A stretch of DNA of 9,416 bases, taken from positions 1 to 9,416 of the forward strand of contig JALSQH010000181.1 of NCBI GenBank assembly GCA_026985515.1, in the 5' to 3' direction. The notes below the pieces were generated by a model. That model saw only the letters and a list, made by a program, of their open reading frames with translations, was not told the origin of the DNA and ran no database searches. This document shows, in pieces, positions 2,679 through 9,416 of this stretch; the stretch's first letter is position 1; each line of letters opens with the position of its first letter. Source of the DNA: a bacterium. GTDB taxonomy: Bacteria > JALSQH01. A program made the position numbers and the translations under genes.

Positions 2679-3461
2679 ATGAGAATCAAAATCCATTTCT
2701 CCCTGCCCAGGGGAGGGGTGAAGTTACCGGTTCATTACAATCCAGTCATTCAGGGTTTCATATACAGAAATATTGATGAGATACTTGCGGAAAAGTATCA
2801 CAGTGAAGGATACAGGGTGGGCAAGAGGAAATTCAACTTCTTCACCTTTTCAAGATTATATTCAAAGCACAGAGAGTATATTAAGGAAGAAAAAAGCATT
2901 ATCTTCAGGGATTACCTCATTCTCAGAATCGCTTCCCTTGATGTTAATCTTCTCGAATCATTTGTCACCCATCTGGTACATAAGAAAAGGGTTAAAATTG
3001 GGAGAAATTTTTGTGAAGTATCCTCCATAGAGGTAGAAATGCCACCCCCATTCAGCAGGCTCGTAATTGTAAAAACCATTTCTCCCATTACAACATACAG
3101 CACTCTTATTGATCCTTACGGAAAAAAGAAAACTTATTTTTACAATCCATCAGAAGCAGATTTCCCAGTGAAATTGATGGAAAATCTGCAGAGAAAATAT
3201 CTGGCACTTATAAACTCACCATTCTCCCTTTCCACTCCAGTGAAATCAAATGAAGAGATGGTTGGCGATATAGAGGTCATTAAAATCAGGAAGGAAATCA
3301 TAACTTATTTTAAAGACACGCTTATTAAAGGATGGGATGTGGTCCTGAGGCTCAATCTCAGTGAGCCATTTTTTGAACTTGCCTACAATGTAGGCCTCGG
3401 CTCCAAAAACAGCCAGGGCTTCGGTATGGTGGAGGTGGTGAGGGGGGAGGAGTTTTCATGA
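2679..3461 (+). CDS. cas6: CRISPR-associated endoribonuclease Cas6
   Basis: Cuts the CRISPR precursor transcript within each repeat to release crRNAs; the reaction is metal-independent. The 260-residue protein opens with the first ferredoxin-like strand RIKIHFSL and has the pattern KYHSEGYRVGKRKFNFFTFSRL (residues 39-60, described here by its key residues). It ends with the glycine-rich loop GLGSKNSQGFGMV (239-251) that defines the family. By comparison with archaeal Cas6, Y29, H41 and a lysine near 49-51 are the likely catalytic residues. The ATG is forced: an in-frame TAA lies at 2673-2675, two codons upstream, and a downstream GTG at 2718 would delete the first strand. No Shine-Dalgarno site precedes it and the promoter implies a leaderless mRNA. 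Its GC (about 41%) is nearer the housekeeping genes than the rest of the operon. The stop overlaps the cas10d start as ATGA. Confidence 0.94.
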   Translation: MRIKIHFSLPRGGVKLPVHYNPVIQGFIYRNIDEILAEKYHSEGYRVGKRKFNFFTFSRLYSKHREYIKEEKSIIFRDYLILRIASLDVNLLESFVTHLVHKKRVKIGRNFCEVSSIEVEMPPPFSRLVIVKTISPITTYSTLIDPYGKKKTYFYNPSEADFPVKLMENLQRKYLALINSPFSLSTPVKSNEEMVGDIEVIKIRKEIITYFKDTLIKGWDVVLRLNLSEPFFELAYNVGLGSKNSQGFGMVEVVRGEEFS

Positions 3462-6004
3462 GTGTAAATATAATAGCTAAGTTCAATAAAACATTTTCCA
3501 CTCCTATTTTTAAAAAAACACTTAAAGAATATTTTCAAGAAATCTTTCCGAAAATTTTAGAAAGTTACAGGACGTTCCCTGCAAAAGGAGGAATTAAATT
3601 TCAAGATTTCTCCGATATGAGCTATCCTATGCATATCCTTAATGGAATATTACCATCAATGCTGTACCTTGAACAACAATTCTTAAGCAATGAATCGCTT
3701 TCTAAACTCACGAATAACGAGGACTCGGAAATTAGAACACTTATAAAATGTACCTTACTTGGAATAACATTTCACGATATTAATAAACTTGTGGGAAAAA
3801 GCGATTTAAAAGAATCTCTGAAATATGTTGACGAAATGTTTGATCATTTGGGGTTAAGACTATCAGAAGAGGAAAAGGGCATTGTTAAATATTTAATAAT
3901 GAGTGCAGAAGATAGAACACGGTATACAATCCCAGATAGCACACTCCCACAAAAAATCTATCTCCATAAAATTATTAAAGATTATCTGATAGAAACAGTA
4001 CACATGGCAGATAGTATTTCGTTACCACCTCTGGAATCGTTTTCTCATACATTCAGAATTCTCAGAAAGAAAATTACCAATTATTTTCCAAGTGTTCATG
4101 TGTTTTATTTTCATGACACTCCTTACGAAGTTCTAAGCAGGTACATAATGAGCAGGCTCATTACCAGAATAGACGGCAAAATTCTTCTCATATCCCCAAA
4201 AGGTTTTATATGGACGGGAAAACCAATATATAAAAAGAACATAGAAGAATTTTTGCCAGAAATAAAAAATGAATTTTATAATTTTCTGCTAAATCAACTG
4301 GATGACTTTCTGACATGTGATTGGCAGAAAGCACAACTTGATATATTCAGATACATTCCACCAACAAAAGACTTCATAAAAAACAAATTATTTCCTACTC
4401 TACTGGAAAAGAAAAGAGAAATAATACTATATCGAGGATTACCTTCCGATGAAGCTATAAAAGAAAATATTAAAAAAGAAATAGAAAAGCTCGAAGTAAA
4501 CGGAAAACTTGAAGTGATGCTGATATTTAAATTTATTTTAACTCTTACACCAAACAGTAACGAAGTTAAGAAACTAAAAAAGGATATAGAAAACATTTAT
4601 TATCCTGACGAAAAAGATACCAGAAATCCTGTCATAAAAAACATAAATAAAATTCTGGGAGCAGCTTACAGATTCAATAGAAGACAAGATGAACTGTATG
4701 AAGTATTGGTTAAACTTATCACTGAAAACTATCGAAATGAAATTATAAATATAAATGAAGTGCTAAAATCCATTCTAAGTTATGCATACATTGATGACCA
4801 ACCGATATTTCCTATTGAGGTTCAAGACCTTGGTGACAAACACAATATTTGTTCAATATGCGGAGCTAAAACTACTACTGTGGCCAGAGAGGGTGTTTCA
4901 GTTGGATTTTCACCACGAGGTTTCACAAATAGAACAGTAGTGTCGTTAAGAAATACAGAGCGAAAGATCTGCAAAACCTGTTTAGCAGAAGTAATGTTGA
5001 GAAAACTATTTTTTAAACAAAGTAAAGATTTTTTTGCGGTTTACATTGATGCATGTGATTACACAACTCCTATTCTGAATGCTGAGAAAGTTGTAAATTA
5101 TATTGAAAACCAAATAAAGGGTATTAAAACCTTATCTGTGGAGCATGACAGATCTTATCCAATTCTCTATGGGTACGACTTAAAAAACACTAAAGATGTT
5201 TTAATCCCTTTTTTAATGTTTAATATTCAAGCTGGTAAAGAATCAGAGTTTCTCAGAAGATATCATGACCTGTTAATTTTTGCTAGTGCAACAGGATTCA
5301 AAGTTTACCTTACATACGCCCTAAACTCTGACAGAATTAGAAAAGAAAGTTTTGTTCTTGACTACGCCCCTAAATCTTTACACAAATTAAAATGGGACAA
5401 AATCAGGATTGATGAACTTATTACAGTTAAAACAGAATTTGAACTACTCAGAGACTTGGCAAAAAACGTAGGTGGAAGAAGATGGGATAATGAATTGGTT
5501 AGAATTTTGAATGATTATGCTTCCTATCATCTTTCATTTTTTTATCATTTATTCAGAACTGCTAATCCTTCAGGCTTTTCAAGCAAAAATAATGATAAGA
5601 TCATGTTAGTTTATAAACGCATAGGAGGTAAAACGATGGGTGTAATTAAAAAATTGGCAGACAAAGCTTCTGAAATAATATGGAGTGGATACACTACTTC
5701 AAAGCAAACATGGATAATTCGCACCGCCATTGATGCCTTAAAAATTGGGGTTCAAAGAAAATTAGACAAAGAAGATACAATCGCTTTGATGGCAGGAACC
5801 ATAAATAAGAAGGTTAAGATTTTAAAAAGTAAAGAAGTTGATGATTTTTGTCAGGCAGTTTACGAAGATCTTTATGAAAAGACATGGCAAAACAAAATTC
5901 CTTCAAAAACTGAATTAAAATACTGGATATATGGTTTTGCATTTGAATACGCAAAAAAATCAGAAGAAAAATATAAAAAGATTCAAGAAGAAAAAAATAA
6001 ATAG
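3458..6004 (+). CDS. cas10d: Type I-D large subunit Cas10d (Csc3) with N-terminal HD nuclease
   Basis: Large subunit of the subtype I-D interference complex, which in this subtype also provides the DNA-cutting HD nuclease. Of 848 residues, the first ~200 form the HD domain: H59 (PMHIL), H106-D107 (TFHDINKLVG) and H182/D185 (HMADSI) match the metal-binding pattern. A zinc finger is formed by C465/C468 (CSIC) and C505/C508 (CKTC), as in Cas10 proteins. I see no GGDD motif, so the palm is unlikely to make cyclic oligoadenylate, as is usual for Cas10d. The alpha-helical C-terminus (about 727-848) resembles a Cas11 small subunit and has its own internal start, listed separately. The ATG overlaps the cas6 stop and follows GGAGGAG at 3446-3452. 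The gene is strikingly AT-rich (about 28% GC in sampled lines). Family assignment rests on domain layout plus csc2 and csc1 next door. Confidence 0.9.
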   Translation: MSVNIIAKFNKTFSTPIFKKTLKEYFQEIFPKILESYRTFPAKGGIKFQDFSDMSYPMHILNGILPSMLYLEQQFLSNESLSKLTNNEDSEIRTLIKCTLLGITFHDINKLVGKSDLKESLKYVDEMFDHLGLRLSEEEKGIVKYLIMSAEDRTRYTIPDSTLPQKIYLHKIIKDYLIETVHMADSISLPPLESFSHTFRILRKKITNYFPSVHVFYFHDTPYEVLSRYIMSRLITRIDGKILLISPKGFIWTGKPIYKKNIEEFLPEIKNEFYNFLLNQLDDFLTCDWQKAQLDIFRYIPPTKDFIKNKLFPTLLEKKREIILYRGLPSDEAIKENIKKEIEKLEVNGKLEVMLIFKFILTLTPNSNEVKKLKKDIENIYYPDEKDTRNPVIKNINKILGAAYRFNRRQDELYEVLVKLITENYRNEIININEVLKSILSYAYIDDQPIFPIEVQDLGDKHNICSICGAKTTTVAREGVSVGFSPRGFTNRTVVSLRNTERKICKTCLAEVMLRKLFFKQSKDFFAVYIDACDYTTPILNAEKVVNYIENQIKGIKTLSVEHDRSYPILYGYDLKNTKDVLIPFLMFNIQAGKESEFLRRYHDLLIFASATGFKVYLTYALNSDRIRKESFVLDYAPKSLHKLKWDKIRIDELITVKTEFELLRDLAKNVGGRRWDNELVRILNDYASYHLSFFYHLFRTANPSGFSSKNNDKIMLVYKRIGGKTMGVIKKLADKASEIIWSGYTTSKQTWIIRTAIDALKIGVQRKLDKEDTIALMAGTINKKVKILKSKEVDDFCQAVYEDLYEKTWQNKIPSKTELKYWIYGFAFEYAKKSEEKYKKIQEEKNK
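5623..5629 (+). promoter_or_regulatory. Internal ribosome binding site within cas10d
   Basis: AGGAGGT, a full match to the anti-Shine-Dalgarno, lies 7 bases (counted from its last GG) before an in-frame ATG at 5636. It is part of the 12-mer ATAGGAGGTAAA, which recurs exactly at the csc2 start (6001-6012). In the cas10d frame it encodes IGGK. Strength, spacing and the shared sequence argue that it is used to translate Cas11d. Confidence 0.72.
5636..6004 (+). CDS. cas11d: Predicted Cas11d small subunit, translated from inside cas10d
   Basis: In-frame product covering residues 727-848 of Cas10d, 122 residues, starting at the ATG after the AGGAGGT at 5623. It begins MGVIKKLADKASEIIW and appears wholly alpha-helical, with two amphipathic blocks (about 728-768 and 793-835 of the parent) and a very lysine-rich tail (KKSEEKYKKIQEEKNK). 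Small subunits of Cascade-type complexes bind crRNA and the displaced DNA strand along the belly of the complex. It is established for subtypes I-D, I-B and I-C that Cas11 can be made by internal initiation within the large-subunit gene. That this happens here is inference from the ribosome binding site, the in-frame start, the size and the position at the 3' end. It shares its stop with cas10d. Confidence 0.7.
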   Translation: MGVIKKLADKASEIIWSGYTTSKQTWIIRTAIDALKIGVQRKLDKEDTIALMAGTINKKVKILKSKEVDDFCQAVYEDLYEKTWQNKIPSKTELKYWIYGFAFEYAKKSEEKYKKIQEEKNK

Positions 6005-6015
6005 GAGGTAAAGAA
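5999..6015 (+). repeat. 17-nt direct repeat, copy 1, containing the csc2 ribosome binding site
   Basis: AAATAGGAGGTAAAGAA covers the cas10d stop codon (TAG at 6002-6004) and the AGGAGGT (6003-6009) that serves csc2, whose ATG follows at 6017. The Shine-Dalgarno overlaps the stop, a layout that suits ribosome reinitiation. The identical 17 nt occur 220 bp downstream inside csc2. Confidence 0.85.
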
Positions 6016-6016
6016 A

Positions 6017-7057
6017 ATGAATACAGGGCAGTTTGTAAAATATGAGGAAAAAGTCATCAATGAAATAAGACAAAAACTTTATAAAATAATTCCACCTGAG
6101 TTTTTCCAAGAGAAATTTGGGGTAAGGACACCAAATTATATAAAGTTGTTTCTTATAAGAGAAACCACTGGTTACCTTATAACTCGCTCCACAGAACCAG
6201 ATGAAGTGATTAGTACAGAAATAGGAGGTAAAGAAGTGGTCGTGATACCAGCAAGGAAATTAAAATCAAAAGAAAAAATGACCGGTCTCCTATTGTGCAG
6301 AAAATTTGGAGTTGTCCATCCAGATGTGGAATATAACGTTATCAAGCACGCAATACAATTGGCAAATCCTAATTCTATTGTTTTTGGAGATAGTGTAACA
6401 GAAGAAAGAGAAGCTATAGGTCTACCGTCCAGAGTTTTATATGAATGGAGCTACTCCCTAAGATCAAAGAATGAAATAATAGAAGAATTAACCCATAACG
6501 CTTTAAATGAAGAAGGAACAATGTGGGATAAAGAAAGAGGAACACATCGGGAAAGTCTCTATGATGTTCAGTATGTCAAACCTGGTGTTTATTTCCCCCA
6601 ATTTATCACATTCCCAGACATAACGCCAGAAGGATTTATCCATGTAATATTATCAATTGTAAAAACAACCAGATATGGGGCACAGAGCAATGTAATGGAT
6701 GCAAACATTAGAAATCACATAGTAGCTATTGCTCTTGATCAGTTTGAACCAGCTATCAGTTCTTACATATTAAGCAAGGATTGGCCTAATAAAAAAGAAG
6801 TAAGCCTTGAGAATCTAAAACAATATACGATTGATAAGTTACAAAAGTGTTCCTCGATCGTTTTGACAGAAAAAGGAAATATAAACCATATAAAGGAATT
6901 GATGGAATTGATAGAATATTTGCTAAAAAATGAAGATAATTTGAAAGAAATTTACAAAAAATTACTAAGCGACTCTATAAGATATTTAACAGAATGCAAA
7001 ATCATAAAAGAATCAGATGTCAATAATTATTTAAAACAACTGAAAATTAAAAAGTAA
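6017..7057 (+). CDS. csc2: Type I-D backbone subunit Csc2 (Cas7 family)
   Basis: Cas7-type protein with an RRM-like core that polymerises along the crRNA spacer to form the filament of the I-D complex. It has 346 residues, in the usual Csc2 range. Recognisable family features are the N-terminal GVRTPNYIKLFLIRETTGYL stretch (residues 35-54), the NSIVFGDSV segment (119-127) and KTTRYGAQSNVMDANIRNH (216-234), where the RYGA motif typical of Csc2 sits. The C-terminal ~80 residues are predicted helical and lysine-rich. Which residues contact RNA cannot be assigned from sequence alone. The start is supported by AGGAGGT at 6003-6009, the best ribosome binding site in front of any gene in this operon, fitting a subunit needed in several copies per complex. 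It is 12 bp after cas10d and 1 bp before csc1. Confidence 0.92.
   Translation: MNTGQFVKYEEKVINEIRQKLYKIIPPEFFQEKFGVRTPNYIKLFLIRETTGYLITRSTEPDEVISTEIGGKEVVVIPARKLKSKEKMTGLLLCRKFGVVHPDVEYNVIKHAIQLANPNSIVFGDSVTEEREAIGLPSRVLYEWSYSLRSKNEIIEELTHNALNEEGTMWDKERGTHRESLYDVQYVKPGVYFPQFITFPDITPEGFIHVILSIVKTTRYGAQSNVMDANIRNHIVAIALDQFEPAISSYILSKDWPNKKEVSLENLKQYTIDKLQKCSSIVLTEKGNINHIKELMELIEYLLKNEDNLKEIYKKLLSDSIRYLTECKIIKESDVNNYLKQLKIKK
6219..6235 (+). repeat. 17-nt direct repeat, copy 2, inside csc2, followed by an in-frame GTG
   Basis: Exact second copy of AAATAGGAGGTAAAGAA, here read in a different frame and encoding part of TEIGGKE of Csc2 (around residues 68-73). The AGGAGGT at 6223-6229 is followed after 7 bases by GTG at 6236, which is in the csc2 frame. 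Initiation there would give a 273-residue Csc2 lacking its first 73 residues. It may simply reflect the local codon choice for Ile-Gly-Gly-Lys. Confidence 0.6.
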
Positions 7058-7058
7058 G

Positions 7059-7691
7059 ATGATAAGGCATTACAAAATTTTACTCCTATCACCGCTTTTC
7101 TATTACACAAGAACAGAAAGCGGGGTTGCATCAACTTCCCCCTTTATTGGAGACATTGCTCTTACTTATGCTACAAACTTTGCGTTGGGATGGAATAAAA
7201 GAATAACATATCAACCTAAATTAGAACCTGATTACAACGAAATCAAAGAACTTGGATTCCTATGGACAGTTGGACGTCCTATTAAAATTAAAAGAACACA
7301 GATTTATTCTAGATACACTTCACCAATATCCGATGGAATGGTCCGAAAGGATTTAATTGAACTGATGGGTAAATCGCTTTTTAAAAATTATTTTCACGTG
7401 CAGGGAATAGAAGCTGGTTCAGTTTTCCAAGCTTCGCTAATTGGGAATTTAAACATTCCTCACCAATTCACATTGAGGATAGGCAACGGAAAAGAATGTT
7501 TAATTCTGTTGGAAAAATTGGACAAACCTGACAAAGACATATGGGTGAATTACTATACCATTAAAAAAATATTTAACAAAGATTTAAAGTTTAAAGAGGG
7601 TTTAACAATAGAACGAATTCTAGCGCAGTATATAATTGTGAAAGGGTTGAATGAAAAAGATTTGGAGAAAATATTTAATTCCACAATATGA
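7059..7691 (+). CDS. csc1: Type I-D subunit Csc1 (Cas5 family)
   Basis: Cas5-type subunit expected to hold the 5' handle of the crRNA and help form the PAM-recognition end of the complex with Cas10d. It has 210 residues. The family signature TSPFIGDIALTYATNFALG (residues 26-44) is clear, preceded by the first strand YKILLLSPLFYYTRTESG. The middle contains paired basic residues (KIKRTQIYSRY, 76-86) that could contact RNA. Unlike many other Cas5 proteins of type I systems, no catalytic role is expected because Cas6 is present. The ATG at 7059 is 1 bp after the csc2 stop and has no clear Shine-Dalgarno, so it is probably translated by coupling with csc2. The last bases overlap the cas3' start as ATGA. 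The csc2-csc1 order is the common one for subtype I-D. Confidence 0.9.
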   Translation: MIRHYKILLLSPLFYYTRTESGVASTSPFIGDIALTYATNFALGWNKRITYQPKLEPDYNEIKELGFLWTVGRPIKIKRTQIYSRYTSPISDGMVRKDLIELMGKSLFKNYFHVQGIEAGSVFQASLIGNLNIPHQFTLRIGNGKECLILLEKLDKPDKDIWVNYYTIKKIFNKDLKFKEGLTIERILAQYIIVKGLNEKDLEKIFNSTI

Positions 7692-9416
7692 TTGATTTAA
7701 TAGTAACTGTAAAAGAAAAAAGGATTCCTCTTGGTGAAACCGAAATTGAGGTGGATGGTAAAAAATATAGATTGCATAAATTTCAAGAAAAATTCTACTC
7801 CAACCTAAGCGATTTGCCCACTGTTACAGTCGTTATAGCTCCAACCGGCGCCGGCAAAACATTTGCCTTTGTCCTTCCTATCTTATACGCAAAAAATAAA
7901 AAATATCCTGCTTCTCCAAGAGGCCTCGTCATAGCTCCAACCAATGCACTTGTTGAAGACATGTATAATAGCTTTAAAAAATTAGTTAATGCAGAAAAAA
8001 TCACCGGGAGAACTCTTAAAGAACATGGGAGCAACAGAGCAAAAGAATTAATAAACAGGTTAAAATCTGCAGAGATAGTAGTCACAAATCCTGATATTGT
8101 AAACTTCGTTATTCACGGTGGTTATCACACAGATAATTCAGGCAAAAGGCGTTTTATTTTAAATTTTCAAGATTGGACTGAATTCTTTGGAAAGATCCAA
8201 TACATAATATTCGATGAATACCATTTATATGACGAAGAACAAATAGCTAATCTCTTAGTTTGGCTATTATCAAATCACAAGTTTTTCCCAAGCATAAAAT
8301 GGTTTTTCGTATCAGCAACCCCTGAGTCAGCTCTTCTAAAACTTCTAGGAAATCATCAAATTGAGTTTGAAATCATTCAAGAAAATTTAGAAGATTCTGG
8401 GAGGATTATTCAAGGACAACAAAAAATAAATTTCATCGGAGTTTCTAAATCCTACTCATTATATCAGTGGATATTTGGCAAAGAAGGTATTCAAACTGAA
8501 GTAAAAGAAAAGATTTTGTCGACAATCAAAAAAGGTAAAAAAGTTCTTTTCATTTTTAATTCATTAAGAGAAGCAAAACTCGCTGAAGAAAAATTGAAAT
8601 TTATTTTTAGCGATGCCAAGATAGGCATAAATACAGGTTTTGAAACCAGGCAGAAAGATTTCAACTTTAATCCTGAGAAATTTGACCTAATAATATCAAC
8701 CTCAAAAATCGAAGTTGGAGTAAATTATCCTGTCCACCTTGCGTACATTGAGTCCGGGAAATATTTGAGAAATTTTCTCCAAAGGATTGGAAGGATCGGA
8801 AGAGGTAACATTGAAAGTGAAATCTTTTGCTTAACACCTGTATCAGTTGTAGAACCACTTAAAAATAGTTTAAAAAATAACATTACCTATTATGAATTTA
8901 CAGAAGCACTAAATCACTCCTTTAATGATAAAGAACTCAAAGAAAGAAAAATCCCCTATTTTATAGGTGCACTGCTCTGGTCAGTATACAATGCCTTAAG
9001 CCATCAAGAAAAAAAAGATGTAATTAAAGACCTTATAGAGCAATTTCCTTATTCCAAGATTCTTTTTAAACTAGATAAAGAAATTAAAAACATAAATATG
9101 CACGACGAATTCAATAATTTAAAGATTTTCTGGAATTCTTTCAAACAATCATTCGTAAGATTCAGAACCGATTCAATTCAATGGAAAGTTCTATACAAAA
9201 CTCAGGAAACAGAGTATGACATAATATGGATTCTTGACAATGCATTTATTGAAAAAATAAACAAAGAACAAAAGGAAATAGTGATAACTGATTTCAGGCC
9301 TAAAAGAGAACTAATAGTTAAAGGAATATTAACTCCAACTATTCTTGATGATCCATACAAAAAAAATAATCTTCAGAAAATAGGGGGTATTGACAGAAAT
9401 GGAAAAAAAGAATGGT
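7688..9416 (+). CDS. cas3: Cas3' superfamily 2 helicase, C-terminus cut by window edge
   Basis: ATP-driven helicase that unwinds target DNA after recognition; in subtype I-D it works with the HD nuclease carried by Cas10d. The frame is open from the ATG at 7688 to the window end, 576 codons with no stop. I read motif I APTGAGKT (residues 51-58), Ia APTNAL (83-88), Ib TNPD (133-136), motif II DEYH (176-179), motif III SATP (209-212), motif V STSKIEVGVNYP (337-348) and motif VI QRIGRIGRG (365-373). All core motifs are intact. Only 50 residues precede motif I, so no HD domain is fused at the N-terminus, which defines it as Cas3'. The region after residue 373 is family-specific and unassigned. 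It overlaps csc1 by 4 bp (ATGA) with no strong ribosome binding site, implying coupled translation. Composition is AT-rich like cas10d to csc1. Confidence 0.92.
   Translation, partial: MIDLIVTVKEKRIPLGETEIEVDGKKYRLHKFQEKFYSNLSDLPTVTVVIAPTGAGKTFAFVLPILYAKNKKYPASPRGLVIAPTNALVEDMYNSFKKLVNAEKITGRTLKEHGSNRAKELINRLKSAEIVVTNPDIVNFVIHGGYHTDNSGKRRFILNFQDWTEFFGKIQYIIFDEYHLYDEEQIANLLVWLLSNHKFFPSIKWFFVSATPESALLKLLGNHQIEFEIIQENLEDSGRIIQGQQKINFIGVSKSYSLYQWIFGKEGIQTEVKEKILSTIKKGKKVLFIFNSLREAKLAEEKLKFIFSDAKIGINTGFETRQKDFNFNPEKFDLIISTSKIEVGVNYPVHLAYIESGKYLRNFLQRIGRIGRGNIESEIFCLTPVSVVEPLKNSLKNNITYYEFTEALNHSFNDKELKERKIPYFIGALLWSVYNALSHQEKKDVIKDLIEQFPYSKILFKLDKEIKNINMHDEFNNLKIFWNSFKQSFVRFRTDSIQWKVLYKTQETEYDIIWILDNAFIEKINKEQKEIVITDFRPKRELIVKGILTPTILDDPYKKNNLQKIGGIDRNGKKEW

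Follow-up and report, generated by a model that had tools for sequence, protein, structure and literature searches.

The window, i.e., the whole stretch of 9,416 nucleotides that we analysed, contains a type I-D operon in the order cas6-cas10d-csc2-csc1-cas3' (Table 1). Csc2, Csc1 and Cas3' score above the cut-offs of their NCBIfam models. Cas10d falls under that of TIGR03174, yet matches the PADLOC models Cas10_Id (residues 451-838, E 4e-18) and Cas10d (residues 94-787, E 3e-13), which fits the earlier description of a divergent I-D locus. It also gives a profile match to cyanobacterial Cas10d over its full length (probability 99.6%), and its residues H106 and D107 are invariant among 21 full-length homologues. 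A type I-D CRISPR-Cas effector module is defined by a Cas10d with a type I-like HD domain together with Csc2, Csc1 and a separate Cas3', and by its sequence the locus encodes such a module.

Table 1. Features of the type I-D locus, in window coordinates.
Feature	Position	Strand	Evidence or remark
cas6	2679..3461	+	TIGR01877, E 2e-34
cas10d (848 aa), divergent type I-D large subunit, hosts the nested start	3458..6004	+	PADLOC, profile match
Shine-Dalgarno AGGAGGT for the internal start	5623..5629	+	anti-SD pairing -11.6 kcal/mol
Predicted cas11d, nested in frame (122 aa, five-helix, Cas10d residues 727-848)	5636..6004	+	Met conservation, fold
csc2 (cas7d), 3' neighbour of cas10d, RBS ATAGGAGGTAAA at 6001-6012	6017..7057	+	NCBIfam TIGR03157, E 3e-28; Pfam PF18320
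Third copy of ATAGGAGGTAAA, within csc2, 5' of in-frame GTG 6236	6221..6232	+	most likely fortuitous
csc1 (cas5d)	7059..7691	+	TIGR03159, E 3e-12
cas3' helicase, truncated by the contig end	7688..9415	+	TIGR03158, E 1e-31

In several related I-D loci, adaptation genes follow cas3', whereas Cas1 had no match in the assembly of the window (97.6% complete), whose contig stops inside cas3'. Perhaps cas1 was lost with the contig end, or spacers come from another source. The stretch from cas10d to cas3' (3458-9415) has a G+C content of 0.30-0.33, lower than that of a genome sample (0.41), of cas6 (0.40) and of the upstream housekeeping genes (0.43-0.46), and the closest relatives that we found are archaeal (Archaeoglobales, 59-73% identity). 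The low G+C content and the archaeal affinity thus suggest that an archaeon, or a shared donor, was the source of the effector genes, which came to stand beside a resident-type cas6.

Direct reading of the sequence places ATAGGAGGTAAA at 5621-5632, with AGGAGGT inside it, and an ATG at 5636-5638. Being in frame with cas10d ((5636-3458)/3 = 726), this ATG forms codon 727 of the gene and opens 122 codons that end on the stop at 6002-6004. The earlier note had described the same site, but with a spacing of seven bases between AGGAGGT and the ATG, which is in fact six. The 12-mer recurs just 5' of the csc2 start, and the pairing with the anti-Shine-Dalgarno (anti-SD) is equally strong at the two places, as had been expected. 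These energies assume the standard anti-SD, since the assembly yielded no 16S rRNA from which that of the host could be read. All 12 other internal ATGs of cas10d have weaker pairing (0/12 comparable). In a 234-kb sample of the genome, pairing at least as strong is present at 1.2% (8/658) of internal ATGs and at 19% of gene starts. With 12 other internal ATGs in cas10d, the chance of one equally strong site by luck is ~15%, and the site taken alone is therefore only suggestive of a start.

The third copy of the 12-mer, in csc2, had escaped the earlier note and bears on how its identity should be read. Three exact copies in 9.4 kb, against just five in the whole 2.36-Mb genome, are not a random occurrence. 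The two outside the window lie directly 5' of an enoyl-CoA-hydratase-like ORF (on C261) and antisense to an acyltransferase-like ORF (on C172). Initiation at the GTG in csc2 (6221-6238) would yield a Csc2 short of 73 residues. We rejected this GTG as a second nested start, as neither it nor its Shine-Dalgarno (SD) is conserved: the SD is broken in all relatives, the near ones reading IGDK or IGNK, and the aligned codon is GTT, GTC, CCT or similar, or a GTG with no SD. The copy in csc2 is thus probably fortuitous, and a good-looking SD does not by itself make a start. The identity to the csc2 start that the earlier note had pointed out is real, but it does not prove that ATG 5636 is a start.

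The phylum of the window consists of two genomes, one of which has the gene. A direct scan of genome contigs with Cas10d gave no matches, and neither did the viral contigs searched; the relatives were found via Csc2 aligned with a plasmid homologue, followed by profile searches within the phyla or orders to which they belong. The resulting alignment of 22 Cas10d proteins includes the window, two Archaeoglobi (L013, L014), one contig labelled as a Bacteroidales MAG (L015), seven Methanococci (L016, L030-L035) and eleven Bacteroidota (L007, L017, L018, L036, L037, L039-L044). The operon of L015 is of the Methanococci type (I-D, with SD, G+C 0.29), and reflects either transfer or mis-binning. The Cas10d of the Aureibacter plasmid pAT6 (L007, 5887-8709), ~27% identical to that of the window, is annotated just as 'hypothetical protein', as are the plasmid-encoded Cas10d of Thiothrix, Halarchaeum and Roseomonas.

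We found the internal Met at a single alignment column in 22 of the 22 proteins, always encoded by ATG, in a set that goes down to ~25% identity and spans a candidate-phylum bacterium, Archaeoglobi, Methanococci and Bacteroidota. It is among the ~40 residues that are invariant in the 21 full-length proteins. The other Mets of the window's Cas10d are mostly replaced by I, L, V or others; M54 is the sole other internal one that is widely kept, and no other conserved Met lies near the domain boundary. Other systems, too, have a start codon near the equivalent place: ATG in Synechocystis, Picosynechococcus, Chlorohelix, Thiothrix and Halarchaeum, and GTG in Roseomonas. An in-frame start codon at the domain boundary is thus conserved in the family.

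The sequence 5' of the internal Met is ATAGGAGGTAAAACG in the window and ATAGGTGGTGAAATT, ATAGGAGGTGAAATT, ATTGGTGGTGAGAAA or ATTGGCGGTGAAAAA in other SD users, with a Gly-to-Val variant reading ATTGGGGTGGAAAAA. In five Methanococci IGGE has become IGVE, yet they have GGGGTGG or GGGGTAG there. True csc2 starts in Methanococci carry the same kind of SD (GGGGTGATGACAATG, TATGGTGATAATATG). Among the ten full-length SD-using genes, including the window's own, the anti-SD energy averages -10.0 at the Met column and -2.8 (sd 1.8) at other columns, of which 0.7% are equally strong. A ribosome-binding signal is thus present at the internal start, with its pairing conserved in SD-using relatives. The comparison of homologues that the earlier note had proposed speaks for the start, as the Met is present in all 22 and the SD is kept where SDs are used, but the synonymous choice of SD is not significant (p = 0.078 for the window alone; z -0.57 across the SD-using group, with 15% of columns as low). 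Just 5' of the Met, each of three disjoint groups shows more codon conservation than the average, but with 18%, 7.5% and 3.6% of windows equally conserved this is only suggestive.

The AlphaFold2 model of the 122-aa product is all helical, with five helices (pLDDT 89.7, pTM 0.83). Its best structural match is the Cas11 domain of 7sba_I (residues 834-975, Z 11.6, rmsd 3.1, 117 residues aligned), followed by 6yes_A (722-847, Z 8.2) and 6thh_C (Z 7.8); the first unrelated match has Z 6.1. Because helical bundles may reach Z 13 by chance, the identity of the three top matches, all type I-D Cas10d at the right segment, matters more than their Z. Foldseek E-values are weak (best 0.12), and local profile alignment of this domain by itself to cyanobacterial Cas11d (hhalign probability 8%) was dropped as too weak; the link to Cas11d rests on full-length homology and structure. 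In the full-length model of Cas10d, of modest confidence (pLDDT 72), M727 sits at the break where the thumb helix (712-722) gives way to the Cas11-domain helix (724-738). The solved Cas11d chain 7sba_J corresponds to residues 830-975 of Synechocystis Cas10d, and the predicted start is at most 4 residues from this experimentally defined one (7SBA). The models are thus in agreement with the Cas11 identity proposed earlier from size, position and helical character, and the segment is predicted to be the C-terminal Cas11-like helical domain of Cas10d.

Such a domain could exist solely as part of Cas10d, the SD and ATG being by-products of a conserved RIGGxM hinge peptide, with no separate protein made. 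Coding for the peptide RIGG[KE] tends in itself to produce an SD, and the SD at the internal start is indeed largely dictated by that peptide; the position of M727 at a helix break could offer a structural reason to keep the residue, and the copy of the 12-mer in csc2 shows that functionless sites of this kind do occur. However, neither the loss of the peptide motif in Bacteroidota nor its alteration in Methanococci goes with a loss of the Met, a Met kept for structure alone should tend to give way to I or L as most other Mets do here, and related systems are known to produce a separate Cas11d.

The Bacteroidota genes also speak against this explanation. An SD is absent both from their internal Met and from their csc2 starts. 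For every one of the eleven genes, the mRNA around the internal Met ranks in the least-folded 17% of positions. It is also more open than synonymous recodings of the same stretch (mean z +1.09; background -0.20, sd 0.35), with 0 of 160 control columns equally extreme. The column tested was set in advance by the position of the Met. As the eleven sequences are related, they do not count as eleven separate tests, but this relatedness applies equally to the control columns. This points to nucleotide-level selection for an open start region in Bacteroidota, beyond the needs of the protein. We thus regard the explanation by a hinge peptide alone as improbable. That a separate small subunit arises from a different internal start or by proteolysis of Cas10d is less probable still: in alignments, the Synechocystis start is displaced upstream by 3-5 residues relative to the equivalent position, but no other ATG of cas10d has comparable pairing and no further Met is conserved around the boundary.

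We consider it very probable that internal initiation in cas10d makes a separate Cas11d; that the product is made, its copy number and its function we infer by analogy with well-studied relatives. Ribosomes would read the cas10d mRNA twice, initiating at 3458 to give the full-length Cas10d and at the internal AGGAGGT/ATG (5623-5638) to give, in the same frame, a separate all-helical Cas11d. Several copies of Cas11d would line the belly of the type I-D Cascade, adjoining the one Cas10d at its Cas11-like C-terminal domain, and would stabilise the R-loop. By analogy with Synechocystis and S. islandicus, Cas10d and the separately initiated Cas11d would together build the R-loop-supporting minor filament of Cascade. 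Within the lineage, the position of the Cas11d start was probably fixed while the initiation signal was swapped by host, between an SD, whose pairing is encoded in RIGG[KE] or IGVE in the bacterial and archaeal SD users, and an SD-free, unstructured and often A-rich region in Bacteroidota.

If this swap is true, the cas10d of Bacteroidota would provide a natural example of in-frame internal initiation that does without an SD, and the change at one codon would offer a testable case for internal initiation where SDs are unused. The locus also illustrates that the curated NCBIfam model of Cas10d misses a divergent I-D large subunit at its cut-off, and that this gene would hide a second one, overlooked by annotation. 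Reconstitution of such systems, in vitro or in eukaryotic cells, would need Cas11d to be supplied separately.

Production of Cas11d from an internal start is already established for type I-D, as the earlier note had stated (PMC10212523, PMC9123187), and the example in the window is new. The closest parallel is Synechocystis PCC 6803 (7SBA/7SBB; McBride et al. 2020, as cited in PMC10212523), where, in the account given there, Cas11d also comes from the 3' end of cas10d by way of an internal start in the same frame. The two share an all-helical product, a domain boundary that is the same within 4 residues, and the operon partners Cas7d, Cas5d and Cas3'. They differ in the length of the product (122 aa in the window, 146 aa in Synechocystis; 11% identity in the structural alignment), in the upstream signal (a strong AGGAGGT versus a weak AAGGAA) and in the operon order, which in the window is cas6-cas10d-csc2-csc1-cas3'. 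The Cas11 domain of Sulfolobus islandicus Cas10d (6YES, 6THH; residues 720-847) matches the window model from its residue 1 with 12% identity. This Cas10d belongs to a separate archaeal lineage; a 14-kDa small subunit co-purifies with it, for which an alternative start was termed likely (PMC7689449). In Haloferax volcanii, Cas11b is produced from an internal in-frame Met of cas8b, as shown by Met-to-Ala mutation and mass spectrometry (PMC11899642). As proposed here, a small subunit comes from an internal Met of the large-subunit gene, but the system is of type I-B, the host gene encodes Cas8b and the product is of 29 kDa.
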